Below, one piece after another: positions 1,972 through 7,248 of a stretch of 20,814 nucleotides of DNA (within the stretch, counting starts at the first letter, position 1; each line of letters begins with the position of its first letter). The DNA is taken from positions 1 through 20,814 of the IMG/VR virus record IMGVR_UViG_3300032116_019631, one strand, 5' to 3'. The notes under the pieces are model-generated. The model did no database searches and was not told the origin of the DNA. It saw only the letters and a program-made list of their open reading frames with translations. The DNA is from a virus. The position numbers and the translations under genes were made by a program.

Positions 1972-3333
1972 ATGGCAGAATGTAAACCAAGTAGTAAATC
2001 ATGGGCATTTAATACAAAAATAAAAAAAATAACTATCATAGATGGTAATTATTTTATAACTCAAAAAATTGGAAAAAAAATAAGTGAAGAAAATTTTCCA
2101 GAGGATATAGAATTACTACAGAAAGTTTCTGAAGCGAAAATTACTAGTCCAAAAATACAAACCATGGGAAATTTAGACAAACCAAGAATAGAGGAATTCT
2201 CTGAAACAGTAACAACAGAATATACTCTCACTTATAGAAATACATATAATATATGTACTGAGGATGGATGCGATGATTGGTATCTTGGTCCAGAATCAAC
2301 AATAGCAGCAGGAAATAATGATCTTTCAAATTTAAGTAAATTATTCGGTAAAAAAATTACAGGAATAACTCCAAAAGGATACCAGCTAGATAAAAGATCG
2401 AGAGAAGCAGAAGAAAATGCAAACGTATCACATGCAAAACAAATACAAGATGTTATTGATTCGCTAATATCCAATCAATATGACGATAAATTTGTTGATA
2501 CATATCGAATCGATACTGTATCTGAAGCTTGGGTTCCAAGCATGTATTATATTGCAGCTGGAGTATCTAGATCTCATACATATGACAGCATAGATCTTCC
2601 AATATTCGGAGGTAGTGCTGACAATACTATGGGTACAGGAGGATGGCTATCTCCATCATTTAATTATAATGTTCAAAAAAGCGGATTTTTTTTACAAGAC
2701 TGGGAAAGTTTTAGTCCCATAGATAAATTAGGAAATTTTTTATATCCGGAATCAACTTTTTATTTTAAAAAAATACCAGGAGTTCCAGATCCAGAAAATA
2801 AATATAGAAGGGTGCCTCCTGACAATTATAGGAAAAGCGCTGGGGGAGGTTATGCATTCAAATCATATGGATATAGTGGACCTACAATAGATGGTATTAT
2901 TTATTATACAGTAAATCAATGGGATGGTCCTATGCCGGGAGCAGTTGAAAATGTAGATAAATATGGCCAGGGTACAACTCCAATAAATGAACCTATTGGT
3001 CCTTTTGGATCAGCCTTATGGGCATGTACAACACCTGATAAAAATGGAATCCCAGAAGAAAATTGGATAGCTTCTCCAACATGTATGAAAGGGGGAGTTG
3101 ACGGGACTTCTAAACAGATTTATGGATATCCATATGATGCATATGAATATAGAAAAGGAACATGGAATGTATACTCTTTTGGTGCTAAGAGTTTTTATGA
3201 AAAGCTTGAAGATAAACTAATAGATAAATTAGAACAAACAACTACTACAGATTGCGAGAATAATTATGATCCCGTTCCTGTTAAAGGCAAAGGCTATCAA
3301 GGAGGTACTGGACAATCATGTAAATGTAATTAG
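1972..3333 (+). CDS. Large protein of unknown function, copy 2 of a tandem paralogous pair
   Basis: This 453-residue protein starts 19 bases after its paralogue, with a weak purine-rich ribosome site (AAAGAAAG). It keeps the blocks of the upstream copy: MAECKPS at the N-terminus, SETVTTEYTLTYR, CDDWYLGPES, KKITGITPKGYQLD followed by a helical stretch, FKKIPGVPDPENKY, YGYSGPTIDG, a KYGQG...EPIGPFGSALWAC block, and a C-terminal GGTGQSCKC. It is about 60 residues shorter, mainly through smaller segments around the first Cys-rich region and before the C-terminus. No enzyme motif, signal peptide or membrane helix is visible. The paired Cys near the C-terminus (CxC) are conserved between copies. 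Ancient tandem duplication is seen directly; a virion surface role is inferred from position. Confidence 0.75.
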   Translation: MAECKPSSKSWAFNTKIKKITIIDGNYFITQKIGKKISEENFPEDIELLQKVSEAKITSPKIQTMGNLDKPRIEEFSETVTTEYTLTYRNTYNICTEDGCDDWYLGPESTIAAGNNDLSNLSKLFGKKITGITPKGYQLDKRSREAEENANVSHAKQIQDVIDSLISNQYDDKFVDTYRIDTVSEAWVPSMYYIAAGVSRSHTYDSIDLPIFGGSADNTMGTGGWLSPSFNYNVQKSGFFLQDWESFSPIDKLGNFLYPESTFYFKKIPGVPDPENKYRRVPPDNYRKSAGGGYAFKSYGYSGPTIDGIIYYTVNQWDGPMPGAVENVDKYGQGTTPINEPIGPFGSALWACTTPDKNGIPEENWIASPTCMKGGVDGTSKQIYGYPYDAYEYRKGTWNVYSFGAKSFYEKLEDKLIDKLEQTTTTDCENNYDPVPVKGKGYQGGTGQSCKCN

Positions 3334-3373: not shown

Positions 3374-3697
3374 ATGGTTAAAGCTGGTTATAAAACAAGC
3401 GAATTTTGGTTTACTCTTGTTAGCTTTATTTTTAGTGGGGCTTATTTATTTGGGGTATTAGATAATTTTAATCAAAAGGAAGATTTAATACAAGAAACAA
3501 GCAAAGGCATAGAAGCGGCAATACTTATTATCGGCCAATTAACAGTATTATTTAAATATGTAAAAGGAAGAACAGATTTAAAAAAGACTTGGTGGAGCAC
3601 AGCAACACCAGAAGAAAGAAAAATTGCTAATAGGCGTAATTCTAAGAATAAAACTAGAAAGAAAATTAAAAAGCCAATTCAGCCCAAAGTAGAGTAG
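3374..3697 (+). CDS. Small membrane protein, holin-like
   Basis: This 107-residue protein has a GAGG ribosome site 6 bases before the ATG. Two hydrophobic segments are visible: about residues 10-30 (EFWFTLVSFIFSGAYLFGVL) and about 45-62 (GIEAAILIIGQLTVLFKYV). A strongly basic C-terminal tail of about 40 residues follows (repeated KK, RR and KNKTRKKIKK). Two short transmembrane helices plus a charged tail in about 100 residues is typical of class II phage holins, and a K/T-EFW-x-TL start followed by a membrane helix is a style I associate with phage holin-like proteins. Its position at the head of a run of membrane proteins and a peptidase supports a lysis role. Holin activity is inferred from architecture, not from a definitive motif. 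Confidence 0.7.
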   Translation: MVKAGYKTSEFWFTLVSFIFSGAYLFGVLDNFNQKEDLIQETSKGIEAAILIIGQLTVLFKYVKGRTDLKKTWWSTATPEERKIANRRNSKNKTRKKIKKPIQPKVE

Positions 3698-3728
3698 ACA
3701 TACTCTGTCGGTGTATTATTATACAGAG
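3691..3728 (+). promoter_or_regulatory. Two mutually exclusive short hairpins around a stop codon and promoter-like motif
   Basis: AGAGTA (3691-3696) can pair with TACTCT (3701-3706) over a 4-base loop that includes the end of the preceding stop codon. The overlapping CTCTGT (3703-3708) can instead pair with ACAGAG (3723-3728). Both stems are perfect 6-mers but share 3703-3706, so only one can form. No T-tract follows, so a classical intrinsic terminator is unlikely. Confidence 0.3.
3704..3725 (+). promoter_or_regulatory. GGTGTA-type intergenic motif, copy B
   Basis: GTCGGTGTATTATTATAC in the 54-base gap before the gene at 3752 shares GTCGGTGTAT exactly with the copy near 10969 and GGTGTATTAT with the copy near 6025. 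TAGACA at 3695-3700, 16 bases before TATTAT at 3717-3722, could be a weak -35 box, but the other copies lack one. A promoter is inferred from recurrence in gaps. Confidence 0.45.
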
Positions 3729-3751: not shown

Positions 3752-4192
3752 ATGACAGATGCAGCATCAGTAGATTCTATCAAAGCTCAGATCGACAATC
3801 TAATTATTCAGGTTAAGTCTTCATTAGGTAATGTAAAATCTGTGGCTATTGCACAAGCATGGAAAATTCTACAACTAGCAGTAGCAGAAACTGTTCAAGT
3901 TTTAGAACAAAATTCTGGAGAACTACCAGGATCTGATAAAAAAGCTCTGGCTATGGATTATTTATCAAAATTCTATGACAGTGTTTTTGTTATTGTAGAT
4001 GTTCCTATGATTCCAAGTTTCATGCAAATTATAGTTCGTAAGTATATTAAAATATTTTTGATGGCATTAGTTAGCTCTAGTATTGATGCTATGGTGACAA
4101 CCTTTAAGCAAGTAGGAGTTTTCCCATCAAAATCAGTAGTTGTTTCGCAATCAGTCAAACCCAAAGCTAAAAAAATAAGGAAAAAGAAATGA
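3752..4192 (+). CDS. Helical, membrane-associated protein of unknown function
   Basis: This 146-residue protein has an AAAGG ribosome site before the ATG. It is almost entirely helical. An acidic N-terminal amphipathic region (about 1-55) is followed by a GSDKKALAMDYLSKFYDSV segment. Two hydrophobic stretches come next (about 76-95, VFVIVDVPMIPSFMQIIV, and about 100-118, IFLMALVSSSIDAMV), and the tail is very basic (KPKAKKIRKKK). The pattern of an E-Q-x-x-G helix followed by KK-x-x-A-x-x-Y and then hydrophobic helices faintly recalls Gram-positive LL-H-type holins, but I would not assign it. The next gene overlaps its stop by ATGA, so the two are probably co-translated. A role with the neighbouring holin-like protein in the envelope is inference. 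Confidence 0.65.
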   Translation: MTDAASVDSIKAQIDNLIIQVKSSLGNVKSVAIAQAWKILQLAVAETVQVLEQNSGELPGSDKKALAMDYLSKFYDSVFVIVDVPMIPSFMQIIVRKYIKIFLMALVSSSIDAMVTTFKQVGVFPSKSVVVSQSVKPKAKKIRKKK

Positions 4193-4572
4193 ATTATACA
4201 GAAAGCTTCGATCAATTTGCTAGCAGAGTAACTCCAACAGACTTAGCCCTATATGCTGGGGCAGGAATAATCTTGTGGATTCTTTTCAAAGATAGATTAA
4301 GTCCTGTTCAGAAGTTTTTAGGAGATATGCTCGGCGGATTAAAGTCTAAATTAGGTTCAGGGGCCTCGGTTGTTCCTGTTGTTGTGCCAAGTGTTTCTCC
4401 TGTTGAGGTATCTAAAGAAGATAAAGAAGATAACTTTTTTAAGCTAGTAGTTTCTTGGAAGCAAACTAGAGACTTAGCAGTTAAAAGTGGCTGTGATGAA
4501 GCAGTTAAGGTTGCTGATCAAATGTTTCCATTTTTAAGTCCAAACGTATGTTCAAAGGAAAAAACAGTATGA
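4189..4572 (+). CDS. Single-pass membrane protein of unknown function
   Basis: This 127-residue protein begins at an ATGA overlap with the preceding stop. A single hydrophobic segment at about residues 18-34 (LALYAGAGIILWILF) is followed by a basic patch. A Ser/Val/Pro-rich linker (VVPVVVPSVSPVEV) leads to a charged C-terminal helix ending near a Cys pair region (VKSGCDEAV, SPNVCSKE). The order of short N-terminus, helix, flexible linker and helical domain resembles inner-membrane anchored accessory proteins. No family recognised. It sits between the helical membrane-associated protein and a signal-anchored protein, both joined to it by ATGA overlaps, so translation of all three is probably coupled. 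Confidence 0.65.
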   Translation: MNYTESFDQFASRVTPTDLALYAGAGIILWILFKDRLSPVQKFLGDMLGGLKSKLGSGASVVPVVVPSVSPVEVSKEDKEDNFFKLVVSWKQTRDLAVKSGCDEAVKVADQMFPFLSPNVCSKEKTV

Positions 4573-5069
4573 ACCCTAAATTAAAATCCGTCCTTTTACT
4601 AGTTGCTCTGGCATTATTAGCTATTGGAATATTTAAACCAAATCTAGATTTGCTTAATCGTCCAGCATCTCCGTCCACTGTTGTACAACTAGATGTCAAG
4701 GAACCAGAATCTGTCGAGTTAAGAAAGAAAGCAGATATTGTTATTAAAGCTCTATCAGTTAATTCTGATCGTAAAAAAGACGGTTTCAGATTAGCCCAAT
4801 TATATAATGATATGGCAACTTTAATAGCTCTTGATGGCAAAGATGAAGTTATTAAAAATACTGAAGAAATTAGACAAGCTAATAGACTAACGGGAGCAAT
4901 GCTAAAACTAGATATCAAAGGCAAATATGAAGACCTACCAGAAGCTGCTCAAGACTTAGTATTAACAGCAATTGGAGACGACAATGTTTTACTAAATGAA
5001 GATCTGAGAGAAAAAGCTGTTCAAGGTTTTAAGGCTTTATCATGGGCTTGTTTAGAAGGAAGTAAATAA
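4569..5069 (+). CDS. Signal-anchored helical protein of unknown function
   Basis: I chose the ATG at 4569 rather than the in-frame ATG at 4548. It has AAAGGA at a proper distance and makes an ATGA overlap with the preceding stop, as its neighbours do. It also leaves a clean N-terminus of MNPKLK followed by a hydrophobic stretch (SVLLLVALALLAIGIF), an uncleaved anchor or signal peptide. The 166-residue product then has a Pro/Ser/Val linker and an all-helical domain of about 110 residues rich in Lys, Asp, Glu and Leu, ending SWACLEGSK. The domain is therefore probably outside the cytoplasmic membrane. No family recognised. Its stop overlaps the start of the cysteine peptidase gene (TAATG), suggesting coupled translation and perhaps a functional pairing such as docking or inhibition, which is speculative. 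Confidence 0.65.
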   Translation: MNPKLKSVLLLVALALLAIGIFKPNLDLLNRPASPSTVVQLDVKEPESVELRKKADIVIKALSVNSDRKKDGFRLAQLYNDMATLIALDGKDEVIKNTEEIRQANRLTGAMLKLDIKGKYEDLPEAAQDLVLTAIGDDNVLLNEDLREKAVQGFKALSWACLEGSK

Positions 5070-5995
5070 TGGCAAGATATTCACCACAAGAATTATATGA
5101 TAATTATCGTAATGGCTTTAGTGGTTGTTTGTGGGAGCAGCATGTTTTTGATCATTTGATGGAACATAGTAAATATCCATTATTCGGTGATGCTAGCAAA
5201 AAAATAAAAAGTAGTGGCAAGGGTAAATTATCAACACCATATAAAAGTGTTTTAAAATTTGAGAAAAGTCCCTATAACGAAAGACAAACAACAGGAGATT
5301 GTGTATCTCACGGAACGAGAAACGCATGTGATGTTAGTAGAGCAGTAGAGATAGATGTAAATGGGGAAAAAGAAGCCTGGGTCGCCAAAGGAGCGACAGA
5401 AGCCATTTATGGCGCTCGTGGCCATGGCGGAGAAGGAATGAGTTGCTCAAGAGCAGCTGAATTTGTTAGTAAAAATGGTGGAATACTATTAAGACAAAAT
5501 TATAAAGGAGTTGCTGATTTTACTAAATATAATGGTAGTCTTGGCGCAGGATGGGGGGCCAGAGGATTACCAGATAAAGTTATTGACGTAGCAAATGATC
5601 ACCAGATTAGAACAACTAGTTTAATACGAACCGTAGAAGAAGCAAGAGACGCCCTAGCTAATGGCTATGGTTTAGCTGTATGTTCTAGCTATGGATTTAG
5701 TAATAAAAGAGATAAAAAGGGCATATCTAATACTAGTGGTAGCTGGGCCCATTGTATGGCTTGGATAGCATGTGATGATACTGGCAGCGAACCATTATTT
5801 TTGGTACAAAATAGTTGGGGGAAATGGAATGATGGAGGTCATCCAGAATGGGGGCCTATTCCGGATGGAAGTTTTTTAATACGAGCCGACGTAGCAGCAG
5901 GGATGCTTTCACAAAATGGAAGTTATGCATTTAGTAATTTTGACGGGTTCCCTGTACAAAAGCTACCATCTTACGGTTTCGAAGACTATCTATAA
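5069..5995 (+). CDS. Papain-like (C1A-type) cysteine peptidase
   Basis: This 308-residue protein carries the full papain triad in order. A Gln oxyanion candidate lies at Q73 and the nucleophile is Cys78 in RQTTGDCVSHGTRNA, placed like papain's QGSCGSCWAF. His228 lies in SGSWAHCMAWIACDD and Asn248 in FLVQNSWGKWNDGG, the hallmark NSWG motif of family C1. A region of about 70 residues precedes the active Cys and could be a short prosegment. There is no signal peptide. Usual phage peptidoglycan peptidases of the papain fold are CHAP or NlpC/P60 domains without NSWG, so this is a true C1-type domain. It lies among holin-like and exported proteins, so a lysis or envelope role is possible. Virion maturation or attack on a host protein are alternatives. 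The fold is confident, the target unknown. Confidence 0.85.
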   Translation: MARYSPQELYDNYRNGFSGCLWEQHVFDHLMEHSKYPLFGDASKKIKSSGKGKLSTPYKSVLKFEKSPYNERQTTGDCVSHGTRNACDVSRAVEIDVNGEKEAWVAKGATEAIYGARGHGGEGMSCSRAAEFVSKNGGILLRQNYKGVADFTKYNGSLGAGWGARGLPDKVIDVANDHQIRTTSLIRTVEEARDALANGYGLAVCSSYGFSNKRDKKGISNTSGSWAHCMAWIACDDTGSEPLFLVQNSWGKWNDGGHPEWGPIPDGSFLIRADVAAGMLSQNGSYAFSNFDGFPVQKLPSYGFEDYL

Positions 5996-6020: not shown

Positions 6021-6044
6021 GTTTGGTGTATTATAATTTATACC
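6021..6044 (+). promoter_or_regulatory. GGTGTA-type intergenic motif, copy C
   Basis: GGTGTA at 6025-6030 is followed by TTATAAT (TATAAT at 6032-6037) and TATACC in the 62-base gap after the peptidase gene. GGTgTAttATaattTATACC is also an imperfect inverted repeat. No -35-like box lies 16-18 bases upstream. This is probably a promoter for the following small genes. Confidence 0.45.
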
Positions 6045-6057
6045 TTAGGGTTATACT

Positions 6058-6252
6058 ATGAAACTTTTAGATAGAATTGTTCTAAATAATTTTTTACGAA
6101 TAATAAGAGATCTTATTATACGAATAGCTGACTTTTTTGAAAAACAAAATAAGCCAGTTAAACCTCAACCAAAACCAGTTCCTAACAAGCCACGACCTTT
6201 GAAAAAAATCATAGATCTAATTCCTGTTCCATGGAGAACAAAAGATGAATAA
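6058..6252 (+). CDS. Small protein with amphipathic N-terminus and Pro/Lys-rich centre
   Basis: This 64-residue protein has AGGG 8-11 bases before the ATG. Residues 1-28 form a strongly amphipathic helix of alternating Leu/Ile and Arg/Asp, too charged for a normal transmembrane helix but able to lie on a membrane. Residues 29-47 are Pro/Lys-rich (KPVKPQPKPVPNKPRP), and the end is IIDLIPVPW. No family recognised. It precedes and overlaps by 8 bases a gene for an exported Cys-rich protein. The layout of a short helix plus Pro-rich rod is reminiscent of small spanin-type or tail-assembly proteins, but neither a lipobox nor a clear membrane anchor is present, so no function is assigned. Confidence 0.55.
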   Translation: MKLLDRIVLNNFLRIIRDLIIRIADFFEKQNKPVKPQPKPVPNKPRPLKKIIDLIPVPWRTKDE

Positions 6253-6592
6253 AATACTAGTTCCAATTTTGGCTGCTGCTATGCTATTTGGTTCATATGG
6301 ATACAATGGATCGACAACTTCTGCGGTTACTCTTGTTGGAGGAATAGTAAAAGCTCAACACACAGAAAGCGTTAAAAAATATAGAAGAAAAGATTGTCCA
6401 GTATGCAAAGGCACTGGCTATTATATTAGTGGCGATAAAATTACTAAAGTCAATTGTGGATATTGTATTCCTGACAAAGCAGAAGTTCCAAAAAATAATC
6501 AGTTAAAAGAATATCCTAAAGTTATTGTTCATCCCCCAATAACTATTCAGCAAAACTGTCCAAATGGCGTTTGTCCAATTCCTAAAAAATAA
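6245..6592 (+). CDS. Exported Cys-rich protein with zinc-finger-like CxxC pairs
   Basis: This 115-residue protein has a GGAG ribosome site 8 bases before the ATG, inside the end of the previous gene. The N-terminus (MNKILVPILAAAMLFGSYGY) is a good signal peptide or anchor, and no Cys lies at a lipobox position. The mature part holds CPVCKGTGYY and, 13 residues after the second Cys, CGYC. The CxxCxGxG half recalls the DnaJ central zinc domain. A Pro/Ile-rich stretch follows, ending in CPNGVCP near the C-terminus. Three Cys pairs in an exported protein suggest metal binding or disulphides outside the cytoplasm. No specific family is assigned. Context is the membrane and exported gene cluster around the C1 peptidase. 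Confidence 0.65.
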   Translation: MNKILVPILAAAMLFGSYGYNGSTTSAVTLVGGIVKAQHTESVKKYRRKDCPVCKGTGYYISGDKITKVNCGYCIPDKAEVPKNNQLKEYPKVIVHPPITIQQNCPNGVCPIPKK

Positions 6593-6602
6593 AGGTTTTA
6601 TA

Positions 6603-7001
6603 ATGGATAATAATTCTGACATTAAATTAAAAGCAATAGCTGAAAAAGTATTAAAAAGAGCTAACGTACCAAATGACGAAAAATTTGGCAGTGTAATAGC
6701 AATATTAATGATGATTAGTATAATATTAACAGTTATTAGAGTATTACAAGAATGCAATAAAAATAAAACAAAAAATATGACAGCAGAAGATAAATATGCT
6801 GTGTATGCCGAAAATATCCATTCATTTAGTAAAAAACGAGGATGGTTTACTCGTATGAGAATCAAAAGAATTGTTAAAAAAGAAATGAGCCATGAGGACT
6901 ATAACAAATATGGTATCAAGCTTGTTGAGGCTTTATTAGATACCGGAGAAGTTCTTGATAGTGACGAAGTAACAACACTAGTGGAGGCAGCAAATGTTTA
7001 G
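6603..7001 (+). CDS. Single-pass membrane protein with cytoplasmic-type charged tail, unknown function
   Basis: The start at 6603 is preferred over the in-frame ATG at 6564, which lies deep in the previous gene. AAAGG lies 7 bases upstream of 6603, in a context (aggttttataatgg) much like that of the holin-like gene. The 132-residue product has a short helical N-terminus, one hydrophobic helix at about residues 29-47 (FGSVIAILMMISIILTVIRVL), and then a charged helical region. That region contains a basic patch (KKRGWFTRMRIKRIVKK) and an acidic C-terminus. No family recognised. Its last 8 bases overlap the start of the GlsB/YeaQ-like gene. Another member of the membrane-protein cluster. Confidence 0.65.
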   Translation: MDNNSDIKLKAIAEKVLKRANVPNDEKFGSVIAILMMISIILTVIRVLQECNKNKTKNMTAEDKYAVYAENIHSFSKKRGWFTRMRIKRIVKKEMSHEDYNKYGIKLVEALLDTGEVLDSDEVTTLVEAANV

Positions 7002-7248
7002 TATATTAATATGGTGTGTTTACGGAATTTTTGTTGGCAGCATAGCAAAAACTTTAGTTCCAGGAGATGAAAACTTTGGATTTGTAAAAACTGTTGCTCT
7101 TGGAGTAAGTGGGTCTTATATGGGCGGAGCTATTCTATACTTACTAGGAAAATACGAATCATTATCTCCTACAGGTTTATTTATGGGCGTAGCAGGAGCT
7201 GTTTTAACCCTGGTTCTATACAACAAACTCACAACAAAAGTTTCTTGA
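6994..7248 (+). CDS. GlsB/YeaQ/YmgE-family small membrane protein
   Basis: This 84-residue protein has three hydrophobic, Gly-rich helices (about 3-20, 31-50 and 58-76). The first carries the family signature of I-x-x-(G)-x-x-VG-x-IAK-x-(L/I)-VPG, then FGFVKTVALG and a G-x-x-x-GG helix. This matches the GlsB/YeaQ/YmgE (transglycosylase-associated, PF04226-type) family of small bacterial stress and envelope proteins, whose biochemical role is poorly known. The length agrees with the family. In this phage context a holin-like or envelope-modifying role is conceivable. It closes the membrane cluster: its stop TGA overlaps the -35 box of the next promoter, so a new transcription unit starts here. 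Confidence 0.75.
   Translation: MFSILIWCVYGIFVGSIAKTLVPGDENFGFVKTVALGVSGSYMGGAILYLLGKYESLSPTGLFMGVAGAVLTLVLYNKLTTKVS

Follow-up and report, generated by a model that had tools for sequence, protein, structure and literature searches.

A papain-type cysteine peptidase in an apparent lysis operon of large aquatic phages

What use does a phage have for a peptidase whose active-site motifs look like those of papain? The window analysed here is the whole 20,814-nucleotide stretch of IMG/VR record IMGVR_UViG_3300032116_019631, and an earlier, sequence-only reading of it had proposed a true papain-family (C1A) peptidase that may be an unusual lysin, a capsid protease or a host-directed effector. The gene and its neighbours are arranged as follows.

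3374..3697, + strand: small protein with two TM-like segments, the syntenic neighbour upstream (synteny, segment prediction)
3752..4192, + strand: holin-like membrane protein, gene 1 of the coupled operon (PHROG 6918, holin, E 9.3e-5)
4189..4572, + strand: small protein, gene 2 of the operon (N-terminal hydrophobic stretch that falls under the simple TM threshold applied)
4569..5069, + strand: membrane-anchored partner, gene 3 of the operon (N-terminal TM helix, linker, five-helix domain)
5069..5995, + strand: papain-type (C1A-like) cysteine peptidase (308 aa, ATG to TAA, complete ORF)
6245..6592, + strand: small protein, its N-terminus signal-like, with a zinc-knuckle-like CxxCxGxG motif
6564..7001, + strand: membrane protein kept in both clades (hhalign 98.95% to its marine counterpart)
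6994..7248, + strand: two-TM protein of the Transgly_assoc family (PF04226, E 6e-6)

The motifs on which the sequence-only reading was built, GDCVSH, SWAHCMAW and QNSWGKWNDGG, are all present in the peptidase ORF, and catalysis is predicted from the residues that they contain. Gln73 (codon 5285-5287) and Cys78 (codon 5300-5302) lie in QTTGDCVSH, His228 (codon 5750-5752) in SWAHCMAW and Asn248 (codon 5810-5812) in QNSWGKWNDGG. All four residues are without variation in an alignment of 24 close homologues and in a second alignment of 58 diverse homologues, which includes a marine-type clade whose members are 51-59% identical; homologues lacking the Cys or the His, which that reading had named as evidence against itself, do not occur among the 58. 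Purifying selection on the gene is strong, with pairwise dN/dS values of 0.03-0.10 between close pairs. In two loci (L303 3648-5690 and L306 3648-5690), an intein-like insert interrupts the peptidase exactly before the catalytic Cys, and Pfam recognises intein and LAGLIDADG signatures in the L303 insert. The placement of the gene in a phage is borne out. At least 512 candidate IMG/VR stretches code for relatives of the peptidase, and the IMG/VR contigs closely related to the window reach lengths of 244 kb. A sequence search of 50,697 phage records detected no match to this family, and no homologue in any isolated phage of that collection.

The papain family is matched clearly by fold and weakly by sequence profile. 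The Pfam model PF00112 (Peptidase_C1) matches the window peptidase weakly (E 0.0097, 16.4 bits), below its curated cut-off of 20.7, which is a detection threshold and no structural criterion; at E up to 1 it matches 10 of 24 family members, the best at E 0.0015. Searches of PDB sequences with the peptidase and with both family profiles gave no usable match. The best AlphaFold model has moderate confidence (pLDDT 69.7, pTM 0.79; pLDDT 48-57 for the remaining four), and its top PDB match in Foldseek is the C1A protease xylellain (3ois, E 1.5e-9), followed by cathepsins, Der p 1 and plant papain relatives. In this model, Cys78 opens a long helix (78-98), His228 lies within a strand (219-236) and Asn248 follows directly after another (243-247), which in the predicted structure is the papain arrangement.

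The window peptidase shares with papain and xylellain the Gln-Cys-His-Asn order, the NSWG motif and, in the model, the fold, whereas it differs from C1A enzymes in its sub-threshold Pfam score, in having no propeptide domain that Pfam recognises and in its own conserved N- and C-terminal extensions. CHAP and NlpC/P60 endolysins are Cys-His peptidases of papain-like fold that serve in phage lysis, and the window peptidase resembles them in both the Cys-His pair and the fold. A role in phage lysis is described for CHAP lysins (PMC10318531). Unlike either group, the window peptidase has an NSWG site, finds its best fold matches among C1A proteases and has no Pfam match to PF05257 (CHAP) or PF00877 (NlpC/P60). 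The comparison with papain and CHAP folds that the sequence-only reading had proposed as a check thus upholds its preference for a papain-type enzyme over a CHAP or NlpC/P60 one. The gene is real, but its kind is not a novelty among phages, because BFVD already lists fold matches to papain C1A proteins, several from uncultured Caudovirales and one from Streptomyces phage Shady, likewise phage proteins of the same fold. Three features are unusual: the operon, a gene set rich in proteases, and the paralogues that have no active site.

We now consider the operon, of which the peptidase is the last, translationally coupled gene. Across 115-120 loci the holin-like gene comes first, followed by those for the small membrane protein, the anchor and the peptidase, with median gaps of +2, -4 and -1 bp, the last measured over 120 loci, and the wider gene order round the operon is near-constant. 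In the window, the stop codon of the anchor gene overlaps the peptidase start; the anchor ORF opens at 4548 and its start is probably at 4569. The holin-like protein has one TM-like segment, and its PHROG holin match is weaker or missing in its relatives. The anchor protein is modelled with high pLDDT (91.1) and is homologous to the marine-clade anchor (hhalign 99.8%), and a fold search with it found no known relative. Its domain is argued to face the periplasm, because in one phage (L281) the anchor is a predicted lipoprotein. The peptidase sequence was inspected for a signal peptide or membrane segment and neither was seen.

Downstream of the peptidase, many loci code for zinc-knuckle-like or thioredoxin-like exported proteins. 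The 6245..6592 protein is the counterpart of marine-type proteins that combine knuckle and thioredoxin (hhalign 93.5% over 30 columns). A WCxxC thioredoxin motif lies within 4 kb of the peptidase in 32 of 83 marine-type loci, a motif count in which loci are taken individually and not as independent lineages; near the peptidase of most freshwater-type loci, the window included, this motif was not found.

The same genomes were surveyed for lysins and other proteases, using 19 phage contigs of 122-244 kb that were picked for carrying the papain-type gene and may be incomplete. Family searches detected Amidase_2, Phage_lysozyme, M23 and CHAP in none of the 19 contigs, and Amidase_3, SLT, NLPC_P60 and Peptidase_M15_4 were equally undetected (0 of 19); the peptidoglycan-hydrolase searches found their positive controls in known genomes. 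This result is an absence of detection and no proof of absence: it concerns eight families, to which GH25, GH108, GH19, glucosaminidase and others do not belong, and the scan took in ORFs of up to 1300 aa, where longer ones exist (one reaches 4261 aa). In one of these phage genomes, G001, there is no lysin among the Pfam families listed, up to 25 at a time, for most ORFs of 110-1300 aa. Because the eight common wall-cutting families went undetected in 19 genomes, the peptidase is a candidate for the enzyme that opens the host cell. Alongside the papain-type gene (19 of 19 contigs), a trypsin occurs in 15 and a subtilase in 13, and G001 codes for a separate ClpP-like protein. In several freshwater-type genomes the trypsin-like gene adjoins a subtilase of about 310 aa (for example G001:C1:147180-148603). 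There are also long subtilases with an LExLExRxLLS-like N-terminal motif (L216 16611-18218 and L231-L233); this motif was dropped as a planctomycete mark, since identity to subtilases of other phyla is about 44%.

Taken together, the peptidase lies in what looks like a lysis operon that has no member of a common lysin family, and the large aquatic phages that carry it are an abundant group. Our preferred reading, to which we give roughly even chances, is that the peptidase acts on the host envelope and probably is the enzyme by which these phages lyse their hosts; among the three roles offered by the sequence-only reading, that of an unusual lysin best fits an operon of membrane proteins and 19 contigs with no common lysin detected. 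In its favour are the invariant residues, the C1A fold match, the purifying selection and the intein at the catalytic Cys, together with a tight conserved operon, a holin-like first gene, membrane or signal-like partners and eight undetected lysin families. Against it, the holin assignment of the first gene is weak and some relatives do not share it, and a trypsin or subtilase could do the lysis work instead.

We infer the action of the holin, the site of action and the role of thioredoxin, and the mechanism would run as follows. Late in infection, the membrane proteins of the operon would permeabilise the inner membrane, which would let the signal-less peptidase into the periplasm; in other phages, peptidase homologues are membrane-anchored instead. 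Beside its anchored helical partner, the peptidase would then cut a structural wall protein or peptide cross-links, a wall protein being the probable substrate. As for the exported proteins of zinc-knuckle or thioredoxin-like type, they may maintain the catalytic thiol in its reduced state, or alternatively they may open disulfide-bonded wall proteins. A narrower and more tentative version of this proposal, which we consider possible but distinctly less probable, is that lysis proceeds by proteolysis of a protein wall and not by peptidoglycan digestion, with a papain-type endolysin, its partner anchored in the membrane and a disulfide reductase that is exported, a combination that would suit the disulfide-bonded protein walls of planctomycetes.

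The hosts may be Planctomycetota, on evidence that is thin. The main hint is a single distant homologue of the peptidase in a planctomycete phage-plasmid, pPLIM01, and published work portrays Planctomyces envelopes as made of protein with much proline and cysteine, stabilised by disulfides (PMC3035269), and planctomycete peptidoglycan as scarce (PMC5814848). The MAG bins of related contigs are Flavobacteriales, SAR202 and Lokiarchaeota, and point away from planctomycetes. DnaB-like and UvsX-like proteins were dropped as a means of host placement, their matches in isolated phages being only about 27%.

The best-surviving alternative is that the enzyme is a functionally ordinary endolysin, which would use its papain fold to cleave the peptide portion of peptidoglycan in the manner of CHAP and NlpC/P60 enzymes. 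Related members of the papain clan do cut this part of peptidoglycan, and the precedent counts for such a role; the operon context and the undetected common lysins fit it equally. The planctomycetes tested do have some peptidoglycan, in low abundance (PMC5814848). However, the active site and fold resemble those of C1A proteases that act on protein substrates, and Pfam recognised no wall-binding domain in the peptidase, so that we regard this alternative as possible though improbable.

Somewhat less probable still is an envelope effector that serves another purpose, such as superinfection exclusion or the processing and activation of exported phage proteins, the trypsin and subtilase among them. 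Such an effector would agree with the anchored and exported partner proteins and with the other proteases coded by the same genomes, and the paralogues without a working active site that lie close to the operon suggest that the fold may serve in binding, but taken alone it would leave the holin-like gene and the lack of common lysins unexplained. A capsid or tail maturation protease is very unlikely. Phages need such enzymes, and tail-like proteins do lie upstream in the window on inspection; the conserved neighbours of the peptidase, however, are membrane and exported proteins rather than capsid genes, homologues in other phages carry an N-terminal membrane anchor, and the ClpP-like protein of G001 is a separate gene, leaving the capsid role suggested by the sequence-only reading poorly supported. 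The idea that the motif is a chance occurrence or an inactive remnant, for which the sub-threshold Pfam match might speak, is refuted by 58 homologues with invariant residues, the low dN/dS, the fold match and the intein at the Cys.

If the preferred reading of an envelope-directed lysis enzyme is true, phage lysis would include true envelope proteolysis besides the cutting of peptidoglycan, with a disulfide reductase helping. It would provide a testable handle on how phages exit from hosts with much disulfide-bonded protein in their walls, it would suggest hosts for abundant and apparently uncultured large aquatic phages, and it would make the peptidase a conserved marker gene of that phage group.

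The family extends to more diverged relatives. The Planctopirus limnophila pPLIM01 protein WP_013112484, annotated as hypothetical, is homologous to the peptidase over 213 columns (hhalign 97.7%, E 1.7e-12) and aligns with it at the same Cys, His and Asn, but unlike the window peptidase it has an N-terminal membrane anchor and a length of 344 aa. On the replicon pPLIM01 (NC_014149.1), genes for terminase, portal, capsid and tail lie beside ParB, which gives it the look of a phage-plasmid. A peptidase profile that includes this protein retrieved further, more diverged relatives. Among the viral contigs, L242 (38 kb) codes for a peptidase bearing a membrane segment, and its consecutive genes specify a hydrophobic protein, an anchor, the TM-anchored peptidase and an exported thioredoxin (PF00085, E 3.7e-10). 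The L242 anchor is related to the pPLIM01 anchor (29%, E 1e-16); for the proteins encoded upstream in L242 and pPLIM01, hhalign found no link from their C-terminal domains to the anchor family. Two tblastn matches of the Planctopirus homologue in Microbacterium phages (E 0.2 and 0.6) were rejected as chance, as they lie opposite an annotated gene.

In 11 of the loci analysed, a second and longer copy of the peptidase (515-627 aa) lies near the operon, including L034 8189-9736, L095 10561-12141, L061 10630-12513 and eight others. These long paralogues carry a Cys-rich insertion, and all 11 have lost the catalytic Cys, with Gly or Thr in its column and a motif without Cys. The His is kept in 10 of the 11, as is the Asn, and the Gln73 column holds Pro, Ser, Ala or Thr, with an adjacent Gln in most. 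Judged from their residues, the long paralogues look like pseudo-enzymes.

Two minor features of the window lie outside the operon. The motif GGTGTATTAT occurs on either side of it, at 3710-3722 and 6025-6037, and the two copies are possibly promoters; the motif was dropped as a mark of the operon, having been chosen post hoc and being kept in close relatives only. Further upstream, 411-1952 and 1972-3333 code for adjacent proteins with alike starts and Cys-rich ends, which by eye resemble duplicated tail-type proteins.
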